This document shows, one piece after another, positions 1,855 to 22,746 of a stretch of DNA of 64,000 nt (the stretch's first letter is position 1; each line of letters starts with the position of its first letter). Both the position numbers and the translations under genes were made by a program. Location: positions 1 to 64,000 of the forward strand of contig NZ_CP047189.1 of assembly GCF_030440575.1 (NCBI RefSeq). The letters are read 5' to 3'. Source of the stretch: Corynebacterium ciconiae DSM 44920 (GTDB taxonomy: Bacteria; Actinomycetota; Actinomycetes; Mycobacteriales; Mycobacteriaceae). Below the pieces are notes generated by a model that made no database searches, was not told the DNA's origin, and was given only the letters and a program-made list of their open reading frames with translations.

Positions 1855-2661
1855 CGCGCACTCCTAGCAGCCGCGGATGCTTCGCCGGCGCAGCGCACTA
1901 GCGCCACTCGCGTGCCGCCGAGCCGTACCGACTCGCTCCCACCACACCTCTCACACGCCCGTGTCCACAGCGTTCATTGCTGTGCGCCACGGGCGTGTTC
2001 TCTATCTGCGGTGCTGGATAGAGCGTTGAGGTGGCGTCGAGAAGCGGGCGTAGGCCGAGCTATCCACAGAGTTATTCACAGTTGTGTAATTACAGTTTTG
2101 TAATTTATAGTCCCATCTCTAAAACCGCAGGTCGCAACCTGTGCATAAGTGGCACTTTTCTGTTGTTCGCGGCCGGCGGCACGGTGCATGGAGTGTGCAC
2201 AACGAGCAGGGGTCGAAAGTTGTGCACAACCCCCTCTAGTTATGCACCGTTTATGCACAGGCGCGGACACATGGGCCAACGCCGGAGTGAGCTGGGCGGA
2301 TAATGGAATTACACAGATTGCACAGCACTTACTGCTACTACCAAAGAAAGTTAGGGATTGATCTAAGAAGAAATAGGGGGTGTGGACGAGCGCCGCGATT
2401 CGTGTCATTCGCCTCCGCCACCGGGCCGCTGCATCCGGCCCGCCACGAGCGCTTCGCGAGTTGATGTTCCTGGGGAGGTGTCACACTCTGTGCGTACGGT
2501 GAGGCTGAGGATGAATCACATGATCTAAGGCGAGCCTGTCCCGGTTTATAGCGCGCAGTGATTCTTGTAGTCTGGGAGGGAAGAACAATTGTTACGCCGC
2601 CGATGAGCCTGTACCGCCTGTGCTCAGCGGCTGCTTGTGCTTGAAGGAGCCTCAGCTAAGC
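1855..2661. other. Probable oriC region with DnaA boxes (dnaA-dnaN intergenic)
   Basis: This 800-bp gap contains no convincing gene. DnaA-box-like 9-mers seen: CTATCCACA at 2060-2068, TTATTCACA at 2072-2080, TTATGCACA (minus strand) at 2140-2148, TTGTGCACA (minus) at 2194-2202 and 2221-2229, TTATGCACC at 2240-2248 and TTATGCACA at 2251-2259. An A+T-rich patch at about 2085-2112 (GTAATTACAG, TTTTGTAATTTATAG) could be the unwinding element. The dnaN promoter must lie in the right part. Placement between dnaA and dnaN and box density support an origin; actual firing is inferred. Confidence 0.75.
2028..2045 (+). repeat. Dispersed 18-mer repeat, copy A (one mismatch)
   Basis: Matches the recurring sequence GAGGTGGCGTCGATAAGC with one difference (GAGAAGC in place of GATAAGC). 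It lies in the dnaA-dnaN gap just left of the DnaA boxes. Other copies are near 8877, 13335, 17077, 36248, 51550 and 58733. Function unknown. Confidence 0.6.
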
Positions 2662-18178: not shown

Positions 18179-18703
18179 ATGACTCAGAAGACCGCAACTG
18201 CCACGATGCACACTAATTACGGTGATATCGTTTTGGAACTCTTTGGCAACCACGCACCGGTCACCGTCGACAACTTCGTCGGCTTGGCCCAGGGCACCAA
18301 GGACTACCGCGCTAACAATGCCAATGGCACCTCCGAGGGCCCCTTCTACGATGGCGCCATCTTCCACCGTGTGATCGATGGCTTCATGATCCAGGGCGGT
18401 GACCCCACCGGTACCGGCCGTGGCGGCCCCGGCTACACCTTCGAAGACGAGTTCCACCCCGAGCTGCAGTTCGATCGCCCCTATCTGCTGGCTATGGCCA
18501 ATGCAGGCCCCGGCACCAACGGCTCTCAGTTCTTCATCACTGTGGCGCCTACCCCGCACCTGAACAACCACCACACCATCTTCGGTGAGGTCACCGATGA
18601 GGACTCCAAGGCCGTGGTGGACAAGATCGCTAAGGTGCCTGCCTCCCGCTTCGATAACCGCCCGCACGATCCGGTGGTTATCGAATCGATCGAGATCCAG
18701 TAG
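18179..18703 (+). CDS. ppiA: Peptidyl-prolyl cis-trans isomerase A (cyclophilin)
   Basis: Cytosolic cyclophilin that speeds proline isomerisation during folding. 174 residues from ATG 18179 ([16 protein letters not shown]), preceded by GAGGG; in-frame ATGs at 18170 and 18137 are less likely. Cyclophilin motifs [19 protein letters not shown] and GSQFFIT are intact, with the catalytic Arg in FHRV. In this position, upstream of a rhomboid gene and the crgA/pkn cluster, it matches the order in corynebacteria and mycobacteria. Confidence 0.95.
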
Positions 18704-18795
18704 CAGAGAACTCACTCGTACACAGCCCGAGGCGGCGGAGTGGCGCAGGTCAGCCATCCGCGGCTCGGGCGTGGAGATGTTCACTCTTTACTTAT

Positions 18796-18840
18796 GACCC
18801 ATCGCATCACGCGTGCGCGCACGGATGCGATGGGTCTTTT
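18796..18840 (+). terminator. Terminator after ppiA
   Basis: Twelve-base arms GACCCATCGCAT (18796-18807) and ATGCGATGGGTC (18825-18836) followed by TTTT; the loop is itself GC-rich and self-complementary (CGCGTGCGCG). Confidence 0.88.
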
Positions 18841-18861
18841 GCGTGTGAAAGAAATAATCCT

Positions 18862-19545
18862 ATGAATTCCTCTACTCTCGCCCGCTGGTACCGCGAGGCG
18901 CCGGTCACTGTCATCCTCGTCGCGGTGAACTGTGCGTTCTACCTCATAACAGCCATCGAATCCCGCTCCCTGCAACACAATCTCGAAGGCTCCTCTTTAG
19001 GCGAAGCGCTCGTGTTCTTCCCGCCGCACGCGGCCTATATGGGGTTCACGGGCGTGTTCCCCGCAGTGGGGCACGCCTTTTTGCATGTGGGATTCGCCCA
19101 TCTGCTCATGAACATGTTTCTGCTCTTTCTCATCGGACGCGAGATTGAGAGCTATGTGGGCAGCCGCCTGATGCTAGCCGCCTATATGTGCTCGGTGGTG
19201 GGCACCGCCGCGTGCCTAACCTGGGCGGCCCCGCTGGATTCCACTGCAGGCGCTTCAGGGGCGGTGTACGCGCTGATGGTGATCTTCATCGTGCTCTGCC
19301 ACCGGACAGGCCGTGATGTGCGCGGTCCGGCCGTGCTGCTGGCGGTGAATGTGGTCTACACATTCATTGCAGTCAATGTATCGCTGTGGGGACACATCGG
19401 CGGCATCATCATGGGCTGTCTGCTCGCCTGGCCCTTGGTGTATGGCAGCGCGCGGCAACGTACCCCCATTGTGGGTCTTGTGTTGGGGGCCAGCCTGTGT
19501 GCTCTGCTTGTAGGCTTCGCCAAGATATCCACAAGCATCTTATGA
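18862..19545 (+). CDS. Rhomboid family intramembrane serine protease
   Basis: 227 residues with about six membrane segments. The catalytic serine sits in GASGAVYAL (residues about 130-138) and the catalytic histidine in WGHIGGIIMG (about 176). Rhomboids cleave transmembrane helices of substrate proteins; the substrate here is unknown. The gene is near the crgA/pkn cluster but on the opposite strand, between the ppiA terminator and its own terminator at 19573. Confidence 0.9.
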   Translation: MNSSTLARWYREAPVTVILVAVNCAFYLITAIESRSLQHNLEGSSLGEALVFFPPHAAYMGFTGVFPAVGHAFLHVGFAHLLMNMFLLFLIGREIESYVGSRLMLAAYMCSVVGTAACLTWAAPLDSTAGASGAVYALMVIFIVLCHRTGRDVRGPAVLLAVNVVYTFIAVNVSLWGHIGGIIMGCLLAWPLVYGSARQRTPIVGLVLGASLCALLVGFAKISTSIL

Positions 19546-19572
19546 CAGGCTGAAGGATGACAGCGAGGACGC

Positions 19573-19621
19573 TATCCCCACCGACAGGCGGTTTATACCC
19601 AGTCGGTGGGGATAAGTGTTT
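19573..19621 (+). terminator. Terminator after the rhomboid gene
   Basis: Thirteen-base arms TATCCCCACCGAC and GTCGGTGGGGATA with a 16-base loop, then AAGTGTTTT. Confidence 0.75.
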
Positions 19622-19642
19622 TGGGCACTAAAGCATGTGGAC

Positions 19643-19966
19643 TGTGCACACCAGCTGTGGACGTTGTGCATAATCTTCAGCGTGTAATTCACCTGTTTTC
19701 GAACGCATACGTGTTCGAAGTGATCACGTCTGACCTGTGTTTCGGCAGGTCGTTAGAAAATCATGTCCCTGTGTGCACAGCGTGTTCACGTAGTGCACAA
19801 AGTTATGCACAGGCTGTGGACAGCCAGTGAATTACAAGAATGTAACCAGATTCCACAGAGTTGTCCACAGTCTGTGCATAACTCCGCTGGTTTTTACACA
19901 CACCTTTTATGCACAGCCGAACCTGTGCATAACCCTGTGCAATTGTGCATAACTGGGTGTCCACAC
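19643..19966. other. Second DnaA-box-like cluster
   Basis: Within this gene-free 324-base stretch I find six exact TTATGCACA 9-mers: minus strand at 19665-19673, 19873-19881, 19924-19932 and 19944-19952; plus strand at 19803-19811 and 19907-19915. TTGTCCACA is at 19861-19869, and near matches lie at 19643, 19772, 19816 and 19958. The box type is the same as between dnaA and dnaN and at least as dense. Also inside are dyads TTCGAAC/GTTCGAA (19698-19719) and GACCTG/CAGGTC (19732-19751). It may titrate DnaA, be a second origin part, or control flanking genes. The whole gap 19546-20188 has no supported gene. Confidence 0.7.
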
Positions 19967-20133
19967 GGGGGCAGTCCACAACGCGTGGTGCGTTCTTTCT
20001 TGGCCCGAGTACGTCAACGCCTCCCCCTGCTAGGTAGATGGGACGCGCCCTCGGCGCAGCGACTGGCTGCAGCGGCTGGCTGCAGCGGCTTGCTAAGGAA
20101 GTCCTGCTGCGCCCCTGAGTAGTTCGTGGGCAT

Positions 20134-20163
20134 GAAAAAACCCGACTCCGGTGGGAGTCGGGT
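20134..20163 (-). terminator. Terminator of crgA
   Basis: Minus-strand stem ACCCGACTCC / GGAGTCGGGT with a four-base loop followed by T5-6. Confidence 0.88.
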
Positions 20164-20188
20164 AGGTAGGTGAGCGGGCTGGGGGTAG

Positions 20189-20455
20189 CTAACGCCAGCC
20201 CATCGTCATCAGCAGGCCAATGATGAGCAGGCCGAAGCCAATGGCGAAGTTGATAGGGCCGAGATCGCGCATGAGGGCGATCTGAGGACCAGCCAGATAG
20301 TTCACCACCAGCCATGCCAGGCCGAGCAGGATCAGGCCAAACATCAAGATCTTGTACCACAGCGGGGTGCCGGAGGAGTTGATCTTGACGGGGGTGCGGC
20401 TAGCCGTCGACGTCGACACCGTGGTCGAGCTCTGCGTAACCTTTGCCTTCGGCAT
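20189..20455 (-). CDS. crgA: Cell division protein CrgA
   Basis: 88 residues with two membrane segments ([19 protein letters not shown] and [17 protein letters not shown]), preceded by a short Ser/Thr-rich cytoplasmic tail. The Asn-Tyr-Leu-Ala-Gly loop between the helices is typical. CrgA bridges FtsZ, FtsQ and penicillin-binding proteins at the actinobacterial septum. It sits next to pknB as in mycobacteria and corynebacteria, though it has its own terminator and upstream region. Confidence 0.95.
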
Positions 20456-20647
20456 ATCTAGCCTTTCTTCTCATTCACAGTTCTCGGGCTTGGGCCCGTG
20501 CACATCTCCTGCTCACCCTACCAGCGTGGATGGAGTTTCTGAACACCGCACTGGCTGAGATGCGCCGCCCGCCTCGCCTAGGACGAGCCGTGGGTCAGCG
20601 TGTGGCCTGAACCCCCGCCGTAGCCAATCACCGGCGGGGCGGATAGA

Positions 20648-20681
20648 GAAAACCCGCCCCAGCTGGCGGCTAGGGCGGGTT
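20648..20681 (-). terminator. Terminator of the pknB operon
   Basis: Minus-strand stem AACCCGCCC / GGGCGGGTT followed by TTCTC, 14 bases after the pknB stop. Confidence 0.8.
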
Positions 20682-20694
20682 GGAGTGCTGGCGG

Positions 20695-22746
20695 TTAGGG
20701 CGCGAACTCCAGCAGGGAGAAGCGATAGATCCTTAGGACCACATCATCCTGGTCCCCAATGCTTTCCCCGGCGGCGGGCACCTGGGAGGCCACGGTGTTC
20801 TGCTTGGTCAGATCATCGGTGGGTTCCTGCTCCTGGCGCACCTGGGCTTGGGTGCCCTTCCAGCCGGCGGCGCGCAGGGCGGCCACAGCCTGGTTGACGT
20901 TCTTGCCGCGCAGATCCGGCACAGTCACCTGCTTTTTACCATTGGACACCCGCACGACTACCGTGGAGCCCTTGGGCGCCTCGGTGCCCTCACCGGCGAT
21001 GGAAAGCACGGTTCCTTCGGGCTCTTCCGAGTCCACGAATTCCGGTTGCGGAATGAAACCAGCGGACTCAAGATTGCCCACAGCCTGGTCATACTTCATG
21101 CCCGTGAGCGAGGGGATGCGCACATTCTCCACACCGGTGGAGATGGTGATGCTCACCTCCGAGCCCTTGGACACAGCAGTGCCGGCGGGCGGCGACTGCT
21201 CAATGATCTCCCCGGCAGGGGCGGTGTCAGAGGCCTGCTCCCGCGGGGTGGAGTTGAGCTTCAGACCGGCTTTCTCCAGCTCCTTGTTAGCGGCCTCGGT
21301 GGTCTTGCCGGTGATTTGCGGTACCTCCACGATCTCCTTGCCGGAGGAGACCACCAGAGTCACAGTCGAGCCCTTGGGCAGGGTGGAGTCCGCGGAAGGA
21401 TTGGTGCGCAGCGCCAAGCCACGGGCAACGTCCGGGCTGGGTTCCTCAGAACGAATCACCTCAAAACCGGCAGAGCGCAGCCGCTGGGTGGCGGCCTGCT
21501 CTTCGAGCCCGGCGATATTAGGAATGGACACTGAGCTCTCGGCAACGCGATCTTCGCGATTGCCAAAATAATCCACGGCAAAGGCCACACCGATACCCAC
21601 CACCACGACGGCGAGAATAGAGGTCAGCCACACGCCCCAGCGGGAGGACTTCTTCGCGCGGCGCCCCTCCTGCTGACTTGGCGCGGCCGCCTGCTGGTGG
21701 GACGCGTACTGAGAGGTTGCTGGGTACTCGCCATCCGGCTGGTACTGCTGGGCACCCGCGGCGCCGGCTACGGCGGCGGAAATATCGCCAGCGGTGCCAA
21801 TAACCGCGGTGTGGGCAGGGCCTTCGCCCTGCGGCTGGGAGTTTTCCAGCTTGGCTCCCACGGGACCCGAAAGGTGCATCTTGGCGGCGTGAGTGACAGC
21901 GTTACGCGCCACCAGCTCCAAGTCGGAGGAGAACTCCGCGGCCGACTGATAGCGATCACCCGGGTGCTTCGCCATGGCGGTAAGGATCACCGCATCAATA
22001 TTGGTGGCGGTTGTAGGGGTGAGATCACCTGCGAACTCCGAGGGCGGAGTGGGTGTTTCATGCACATGTTGGTAGGCCACATCGAAGGGCGATTCGCCTT
22101 CAAAGGGCGGCCGGCCCGTGATGGCCTCGTAGAGAACACACCCTAAGGCGTAGACATCCGAACGCGCATCGGCATTGCGGCCGCGCGCCTGCTCAGGGGA
22201 GAGATACTGGGCGGTGCCTATGACGGCAGACGTTTGGGTCATCGCCGAGGTGGCGTCGTCAAGCGCCCGCGCAATACCGAAATCCATCACCTTCACCTGG
22301 CCAGTATTGGTGACCATGATGTTGGCGGGTTTGATATCGCGGTGAATGATGCCGGCGTCGTGGGAGGCCTGCAGCGCAGAGCACACCGGGATCATCACCC
22401 GGGCTGCCTCGGCTGGCGAGTAGGGCCCGCGGTCGCGGACGATACCGCGCAGCGTCGAGCCGTGCACCAATTCCATCACGATATACGGCACCGACACGCC
22501 ATCAATCACCTGCTCGCCGGTGTCATACACCGCCACGATATTGGGGTGATTGAGCCGGGAGGAGTTTTGGGCCTCGCGGCGGAAACGCTCGCGGAAGTTC
22601 TCGTCCCGCGCCAGTTCCATGCGCAGCACCTTCAGCGCCACTTGGCGTCCCAAGAGCGTGTCGGTGGCGGAATACACGTCAGACATGCCGCCGTGCCCAA
22701 TATTTTCTTTGGGTTCATAGCGGCCACCGAAACTGGTGTGCATCAT
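20695..22746 (-). CDS. pknB: Serine/threonine protein kinase PknB with PASTA domains
   Basis: 683 residues. The cytoplasmic kinase domain (about 9-270) has GHGGMSDVY, the catalytic HRDIKPANI, DFG in MDFGIARA, and an activation loop with MTQTSAVIGTAQYLSPEQ. A membrane segment follows near 370-392. Outside are four PASTA repeats of about 65 residues each (starting at IPNIAG, VPQITG, IPSLTG and VPDLRG) that sense muropeptides or lipid II. It controls wall synthesis and division with PknA. Its start overlaps the pknA stop (ATGA). Confidence 0.97.
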   Translation of the reverse strand: MMHTSFGGRYEPKENIGHGGMSDVYSATDTLLGRQVALKVLRMELARDENFRERFRREAQNSSRLNHPNIVAVYDTGEQVIDGVSVPYIVMELVHGSTLRGIVRDRGPYSPAEAARVMIPVCSALQASHDAGIIHRDIKPANIMVTNTGQVKVMDFGIARALDDATSAMTQTSAVIGTAQYLSPEQARGRNADARSDVYALGCVLYEAITGRPPFEGESPFDVAYQHVHETPTPPSEFAGDLTPTTATNIDAVILTAMAKHPGDRYQSAAEFSSDLELVARNAVTHAAKMHLSGPVGAKLENSQPQGEGPAHTAVIGTAGDISAAVAGAAGAQQYQPDGEYPATSQYASHQQAAAPSQQEGRRAKKSSRWGVWLTSILAVVVVGIGVAFAVDYFGNREDRVAESSVSIPNIAGLEEQAATQRLRSAGFEVIRSEEPSPDVARGLALRTNPSADSTLPKGSTVTLVVSSGKEIVEVPQITGKTTEAANKELEKAGLKLNSTPREQASDTAPAGEIIEQSPPAGTAVSKGSEVSITISTGVENVRIPSLTGMKYDQAVGNLESAGFIPQPEFVDSEEPEGTVLSIAGEGTEAPKGSTVVVRVSNGKKQVTVPDLRGKNVNQAVAALRAAGWKGTQAQVRQEQEPTDDLTKQNTVASQVPAAGESIGDQDDVVLRIYRFSLLEFAP
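22246..22266 (+). repeat. Imperfect match to the dispersed repeat inside pknB
   Basis: GAGGTGGCGTCGTCAAGC, two mismatches to the 18-mer, in codons for Leu-Asp-Asp-Ala-Thr of the kinase domain. Probably codon-driven. Confidence 0.25.

Follow-up and report, generated by a model that had tools for sequence, protein, structure and literature searches.

A conserved crgA-linked cluster of DnaA boxes near the Corynebacterium ciconiae origin is a candidate DnaA-control element of Actinomycetes

A dense cluster of DnaA boxes lies between two convergent genes, 17.8 kb from the end of dnaA, in Corynebacterium ciconiae DSM 44920, and a box arrangement found in it recurs next to crgA across families of Actinomycetes. 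We consider it reasonably probable that this cluster represents, in Corynebacterium, a conserved, non-coding, origin-proximal, crgA-linked predicted DnaA-binding element of a datA- or DARS-like kind, and the element probably helps to control when copying of the chromosome starts. The observations behind this reading are the sequence of the cluster, its box geometry, its conservation, its position and its co-variation with DnaA. They are drawn from positions 1 to 64,000 of contig NZ_CP047189.1 (the window, i.e. the whole 64-kb stretch of DNA analysed) and from comparison with other genomes.

A motif scan of both strands finds six exact copies of TTATGCACA and one of TTGTCCACA between 19665 and 19952, just as the preliminary description had it. 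The exact copies lie at 19665–19673 (−), 19803 (+), 19873 (−), 19907–19915 (+), 19924–19932 (−) and 19944–19952 (−), and TTGTCCACA lies at 19861 (+); those at 19803, 19861 and 19873 are parts of the triads described below. The window holds 8 exact TTATGCACA against 0.32 expected, a number reached in 0 of 100 shuffles. There are 26 in the complete genome (2,584,365 bp, one contig), six of them within the 288 bp of the cluster, and the next-largest group has 3 in about 300 bp. With the looser motif TTRTNCACA, which has 134 matches genome-wide (68 + 66, the full list), the cluster has 7 boxes in 288 bp and the dnaA–dnaN region 6 in 188 bp; a further 5 are found in 294 bp ahead of dnaA, and 7 in 361 bp ahead of dnaB, about 57 kb to the left of dnaA. 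The claim that the cluster is as dense as the dnaA–dnaN region therefore stands in the sense that it is among the equal densest with this motif; a stronger wording, densest in the genome, had to be corrected, since the dnaB upstream stretch has as many boxes. That stretch is the sole non-origin region of the chromosome to do so, and among the four groups only the crgA-side cluster is located away from the origin and does not directly precede a gene start.

The other groups deserve mention in their own right. The seven TTRTNCACA boxes at G000:C1:2526927-2527287 lie directly upstream of dnaB, so that DnaA control of the replicative helicase gene is possible; the five before dnaA (G000:C1:2583803-2584096) include an opposed TTATCCACA pair 11 bp apart, and autoregulation is likely. 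Exact TTATGCACA also forms two isolated pairs of opposed copies, some 27 bp apart, at G000:C1:183463-183498 and 2461622-2461656.

The cluster is situated 3' of both of its neighbours: a rhomboid-family gene (PF01694; 18862–19545, +) and crgA (PF06781; 20189–20455, −). A terminator scan calls a terminator-like hairpin after crgA (20163–20140, −); after the rhomboid gene, a 16-nt inverted repeat at 19573–19614 may be a terminator, although the scan did not call one there. A DnaA-controlled promoter for crgA or the rhomboid gene, one of the roles proposed earlier, is thus rejected on gene direction, because the cluster sits between two convergent genes that both end at it. The two open reading frames that overlap the cluster (119 and 185 aa) match no Pfam family at E 0.001, and 0 of 6 Rfam matches in 18700–20700 reach the gathering score, all to implausible families; a hidden gene or RNA is rejected on these grounds, and the description of the stretch as gene-free is upheld. 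Two promoter-like matches inside the cluster, against 0.5 expected, count against a purely non-transcriptional reading.

The core of the cluster consists of triads, which we define as one box facing two tandem boxes with spacings of 10–12 and 12–13 bp. The window contains only two triads with at most 5 of 27 mismatches, at 19791 and 19849, both in the cluster. One, at 19849–19881 (+; spacings 12 and 12; 4 of 27 mismatches), is made up of a degenerate GATTCCACA at 19849–19857 (+), TTGTCCACA at 19861–19869 (+) and TTATGCACA at 19873–19881 (−). The other, on the mirrored side (19791–19823, +), joins TAGTGCACA at 19791 (+), TTATGCACA at 19803 (+) and CTGTCCACA at 19815 (−). Both triads are arms of a 22-bp inverted repeat (19801–19822 and 19862–19883, 95%), so that the centre of the cluster is symmetric and opposed pairs of DnaA boxes, on the arms of the repeat, flank on either side a dyad, TTACAAGAATGTAA, at 19832–19845, which had escaped earlier notice. 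As TTACANNNNTGTAA it occurs exactly at only two places in the genome, here and at oriC (2090–2103). The dyads reported to adjoin the boxes are present; an inverted-repeat search recovers, for example, TTCGAAC-N8-GTTCGAA at 19698–19719, which we take to resemble a LexA box but to be wider. TTCGAA-like words also occur near the core in several relatives.

Positions 19834–19850 also read as RTNAC-N6-RTNAC, a direct repeat with the consensus spacing given for MtrA in the available parts of PMC3353115 and PMC11215152; genome-wide, single-mismatch variants of the dyad occur at 17 places versus 10 for the reversed pattern, so they are not enriched. MtrA of M. tuberculosis binds oriC and DnaA (PMC5487470); as a binder of the TTACAAGAATGTAA dyad we put MtrA forward only as a suggestion.

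The association with crgA holds through much of the genus. The gene was found in 150 of 151 Corynebacterium genomes; leaving out G074, where the gene lies at the end of a contig, and G092, which lacks it, gives 149, among which the 3' flank covers only 1.5 kb in 16, 2–6.4 kb in 10 and less than 1.4 kb in 2. At least three boxes in 600 bp 3' of crgA were found in 97 of the 149, and at least four in 85, so that conservation in other corynebacteria, a check proposed earlier, came out in favour for many relatives; against it, 39 of the 149 have no box in the 3' stretch covered (34 of 121 among genomes with the full flank). Named relatives with no boxes by crgA include C. jeikeium, C. falsenii, C. 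suicordis and C. kalidii. In 80 loci from Corynebacterium and other Actinomycetes the boxes gather 3' of crgA; on the 5' side, covered for up to 6 kb, no locus has more than 1 box. As many as 43 of the 97 clusters start more than 1 kb from crgA, from which it follows that the element outlives gene insertion. The recurrent spacings (numbers of genomes in brackets) are +/− at 10 (46), −/− at 13 (28) and 12 (22), and −/+ at 117 (14) and 116 (12). The largest cluster found, 17 boxes in 600 bp, lies in G119 (L268:1833-2319, oriented 3' of crgA), a genome that is 53% complete.

A core pattern, TTATCCACANTGTGGATAA with at most two mismatches, occurs in 95 of the 151 genomes and is single-copy in 92 of these. 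Among the matches listed, 66 of 75 core places share a contig with crgA and are at most 20 kb from it (manual count). Twenty Corynebacterium genomes have a record that begins at dnaA, and in 17 of them the core is 14–43 kb into the record. Some genomes with an empty first 6.5 kb have the core nearer to oriC (G045, G139, G043, G006, G018 and G105), and in G009, an exception, it is about 1 kb from the end of DnaA. When 12 empty-flank genomes were searched further towards oriC, a cluster appeared in three (G090, G139 and G045), with 0–3 boxes in the other nine. The core pattern with CCACA boxes has 0 places in the C. ciconiae genome itself because the boxes there carry G at position 5.

Beyond the genus, we compared an order-level set of 29 loci, namely those with the most similar CrgA (the best 29 of 118 other genomes with a match), and a class-level set of 30 genomes hand-picked from 24 families. 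Within 260 bp on the 3' side of crgA, a triad with at most 6 mismatches is present in 24 of 29 loci of the order-level set and in 25 of 30 of the class-level set, the latter spanning 20 of the 24 families, and is lacking at this threshold in the remaining five of each set; it occurs in both mirror forms relative to crgA. The controls gave 0 of 59 for the 5' flank, 1 of 59 for the region 700–960 bp on the 3' side and 0 of 295 for shuffles. A scan of 484 spacing pairs was run on 27 order loci (two near-duplicates left out), the class loci and 147 Corynebacterium loci. The pair 10/13 was the best in both the order and class sets, with mean mismatches of 6.59 and 7.67 against all-geometry means of 10.94 and 11.12; in Corynebacterium 12/12 (7.90) was slightly ahead of 10/13 (8.10). 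The triad geometry was chosen after inspecting these same sequences, so the spacing scan is descriptive and the flank controls are the real test.

A profile was built from 7 elements of non-Corynebacterium Mycobacteriales (threshold E up to 1). In the order set it matched 24 of 29 loci, a count that includes the 7 training rows. It matched 23 of 30 class loci, every time 11–143 bp beyond the stop codon of crgA, and in Corynebacterium 97 of 149, with 83 of these 97 matches lying 3' of crgA on the crgA strand; reversed sequences gave 0 of 208. A class-wide core pattern matches 15 of 296 genomes, and crgA adjoins it in all 15. Pseudonocardiaceae and Rhodococcus loci have a dyad and two boxes 12–13 bp apart within about 110 bp after crgA, and two Streptomyces-like loci (f33) have 3 and 5 boxes within 260 bp after it. 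Distance from the origin was considered as a cause of triad loss and shows no clean relation: in triad-less class genomes the distance between crgA and dnaA is 569 kb in G484, about 129 kb in G295 and about 41 kb in G294 (G475 and G272 are without a distance), and G306 has kept the triad even with some 132 kb between the two genes and crgA on the opposite side.

Boxes and DnaA have changed together in the lineage of the window. Its boxes carry G at position 5 where those of relatives carry C (all crgA flanks: 475 C, 63 G, 40 T and 13 A), and among 87 genomes with at least four boxes only C. ciconiae (G000) and its sister G124 have more G than C there. The DnaA proteins of these two read GGKN-HTTV, with Asn before HTTV (DnaA of the window, 1–1854), and the other 66 read (51 Corynebacterium, 15 others) have Asp; DnaA was unreadable in G082 and G084 and had no match in G119. 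The accessible text of PMC5043019 assigns base contacts to residues 432–435 of E. coli DnaA and describes a position-5 preference that varies between bacterial groups, with position 5 reported as unimportant for the E. coli and M. tuberculosis proteins. There are counter-cases that have Asp all the same: G098 (3 G and 1 C at the dnaA locus), G226 (f14; 4 G, 1 C and 1 A at oriC) and G035 (2 G and 1 C after crgA). The co-variation amounts to a single evolutionary event, shared by two sister genomes. Still, the parallel change at oriC and in the crgA cluster would be difficult to account for if DnaA did not bind both, and a box letter and a recognition residue changing together suggest that DnaA binding is real. 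Viewed separately, Asn for Asp in the recognition helix with C-to-G at position 5 of many boxes, in all four clusters, is a possible natural change of initiator specificity.

Known DnaA-control sites offer parallels in topology and position. At the locations that we take to be those of E. coli DARS1 and DARS2, the cores of both sites read +, − at 14 and − at 12. This spacing, 14/12, fits crgA loci worse than 10/13 does, with mean mismatches of 9.30 (order) and 9.60 (class). The DARS core is described as three DnaA boxes at fixed spacing, with box I opposed to II and III (PMC5742627 and PMC8682772, in the parts available), an arrangement that lets ADP-DnaA meet head to head and release ADP (PMC8682772, likewise). 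The crgA element shares the opposed box I, as in the window triad at 19849–19881 and the order- and class-level loci with a triad, and its II–III spacing of 12–13 is close to the 12 of E. coli; it differs in the I–II spacing (10–12 rather than 14), and the E. coli sites are not close to oriC. The datA site of E. coli is, in the account of PMC5742627 available to us, a non-coding DnaA-box cluster copied soon after oriC, whose essential boxes all point in one direction and which needs an IHF site. The crgA element is likewise non-coding and near oriC but has opposed boxes, so it resembles DARS in topology and datA in position. The conserved triad and the nearness to oriC fit the datA-like site that was among the original proposals. 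Clusters near oriC that restrain initiation are already known from E. coli, B. subtilis and S. coelicolor (PMC4585315, PMC5742627, as far as their accessible text goes), those of the latter two repressing untimely initiation (Smulczyk-Krawczyszyn 2006; Okumura 2012, as cited there). The crgA element is an origin-proximal DnaA-box cluster like these. The S. coelicolor clusters presumably bear the cosmid-based names H69, H24 and D78, and one may be the crgA site.

The element also resembles oriC, which raises the alternative of an accessory or ancestral origin module, derived from oriC and able to unwind DNA. The oriC module of the window (2060–2106, +; triad scan, 6 of 27 mismatches) consists of CTATCCACA, TTATTCACA and TGTGTAATT, followed by TTACAGTTTTGTAA, and the element has in common with Corynebacterium oriC boxes in tandem, a TGTG half that faces them and the TTACANNNNTGTAA dyad. 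Of 24 oriC regions from Corynebacterium, 17 have as their best triad a tandem pair of boxes with TGTGTAATT, which runs into the dyad, and in 20 dnaA–dnaN gaps from the genus the dyad is exact in 11, has one mismatch in 7 and is absent in 1 (the remaining gap could not be placed). In the portion of PMC8287927 available, the BUS unwinding module is defined by tandem boxes next to a repeat motif. In 9 of 19 genomes the alignment of the crgA core to oriC outscores every one of 100 shuffles, and in 4 of these it takes in both box and dyad. The likeness is confined to part of the genomes, however: 10 of the 19 have no significant alignment (G043 and G077 had no true core in the stretch compared), and the tandem-box/dyad module is not evident in 15 non-Corynebacterium oriC regions. 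Corynebacterium oriC, unlike the element, has a degenerate third site (TGTGTAATT) leading into AT-rich DNA, and the cluster has no comparable AT-rich stretch. Over 164 kb (100 kb to the left and 64 kb to the right) the cumulative GC skew has its minimum at 2–4 kb and is still rising at 20 kb, so dnaA–dnaN is the origin. An origin-like module had been put forward for the cluster, and the conserved triad, the dyad common with oriC and the position near oriC speak for some such kinship; as a second main origin it is disfavoured by the skew, which turns at dnaA–dnaN and not at the cluster. We regard an unwinding-competent origin module as quite improbable.

Passive titration alone, in which a dense high-affinity patch near oriC soaks up DnaA and geometry has no special part, would account for seven boxes in 288 bp and for up to 17 in 600 bp in one relative, and E. 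coli DnaA boxes are also seen to gather near oriC (PMC12371093, from the part available). It requires neither fixed spacings across families nor a conserved dyad, and many non-Corynebacterium loci have just 1–3 exact boxes, which makes it unlikely as the whole explanation. DnaA and MtrA are both transcription factors, and an operator that ancestrally lay before the gene downstream of crgA, repressing or activating it via DnaA and perhaps MtrA, could explain the promoter-like matches in the cluster and the several Pseudonocardiaceae loci with a likely start codon within about 10 bases after the last box (by-eye reading). Both neighbours in the window end at the cluster, however, and the clusters more than 1 kb from crgA in Corynebacterium do not sit well with an operator either; we give this explanation little credence, about as little as the origin module.

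We therefore return to the datA- or DARS-like element as our preferred reading. Its core is three DnaA boxes, one facing two in tandem, with an AT-rich dyad alongside that is like the one adjoining the first boxes of oriC. From the sequence we infer that DnaA assembles on it, and an effect on timing could come about by titration, ATP hydrolysis or ADP release. As it is duplicated within a very short time of initiation, the element would then remove or recycle DnaA and so help to limit initiation to once per cycle. Where oriC has the degenerate third site and AT-rich DNA, the element has a genuine opposed box, so a DnaA filament begun on the tandem boxes would meet one of opposite polarity; such an encounter may give a decoy or a nucleotide-exchange complex and not an open origin. 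More tentatively, and with rather more doubt than confidence, we propose that the actinomycete class carries a dedicated, oriC-derived DnaA satellite by crgA, in which the opposed third box would turn an unwinding module into a DnaA-recycling site (DARS-like or a decoy origin), and that in one Corynebacterium lineage its boxes and the oriC boxes switched from C to G at position 5 together with the Asp-to-Asn change in the DnaA recognition helix.

A literature search, mostly outside subscription journals, returned among the matches listed no published account of a crgA-linked DnaA-box triad across Actinomycetes. The element bears on the question of how replication is timed in actinomycetes such as Corynebacterium, Mycobacterium and Streptomyces, for which, to our knowledge, no counterparts of the DnaA-control sites of E. 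coli are known. A small element at a predictable address and with fixed box geometry makes that question testable by one deletion. If the element is DARS-like, the same logic arose outside the gamma-proteobacteria; if it is a decoy origin, it would represent a new use of an origin module.
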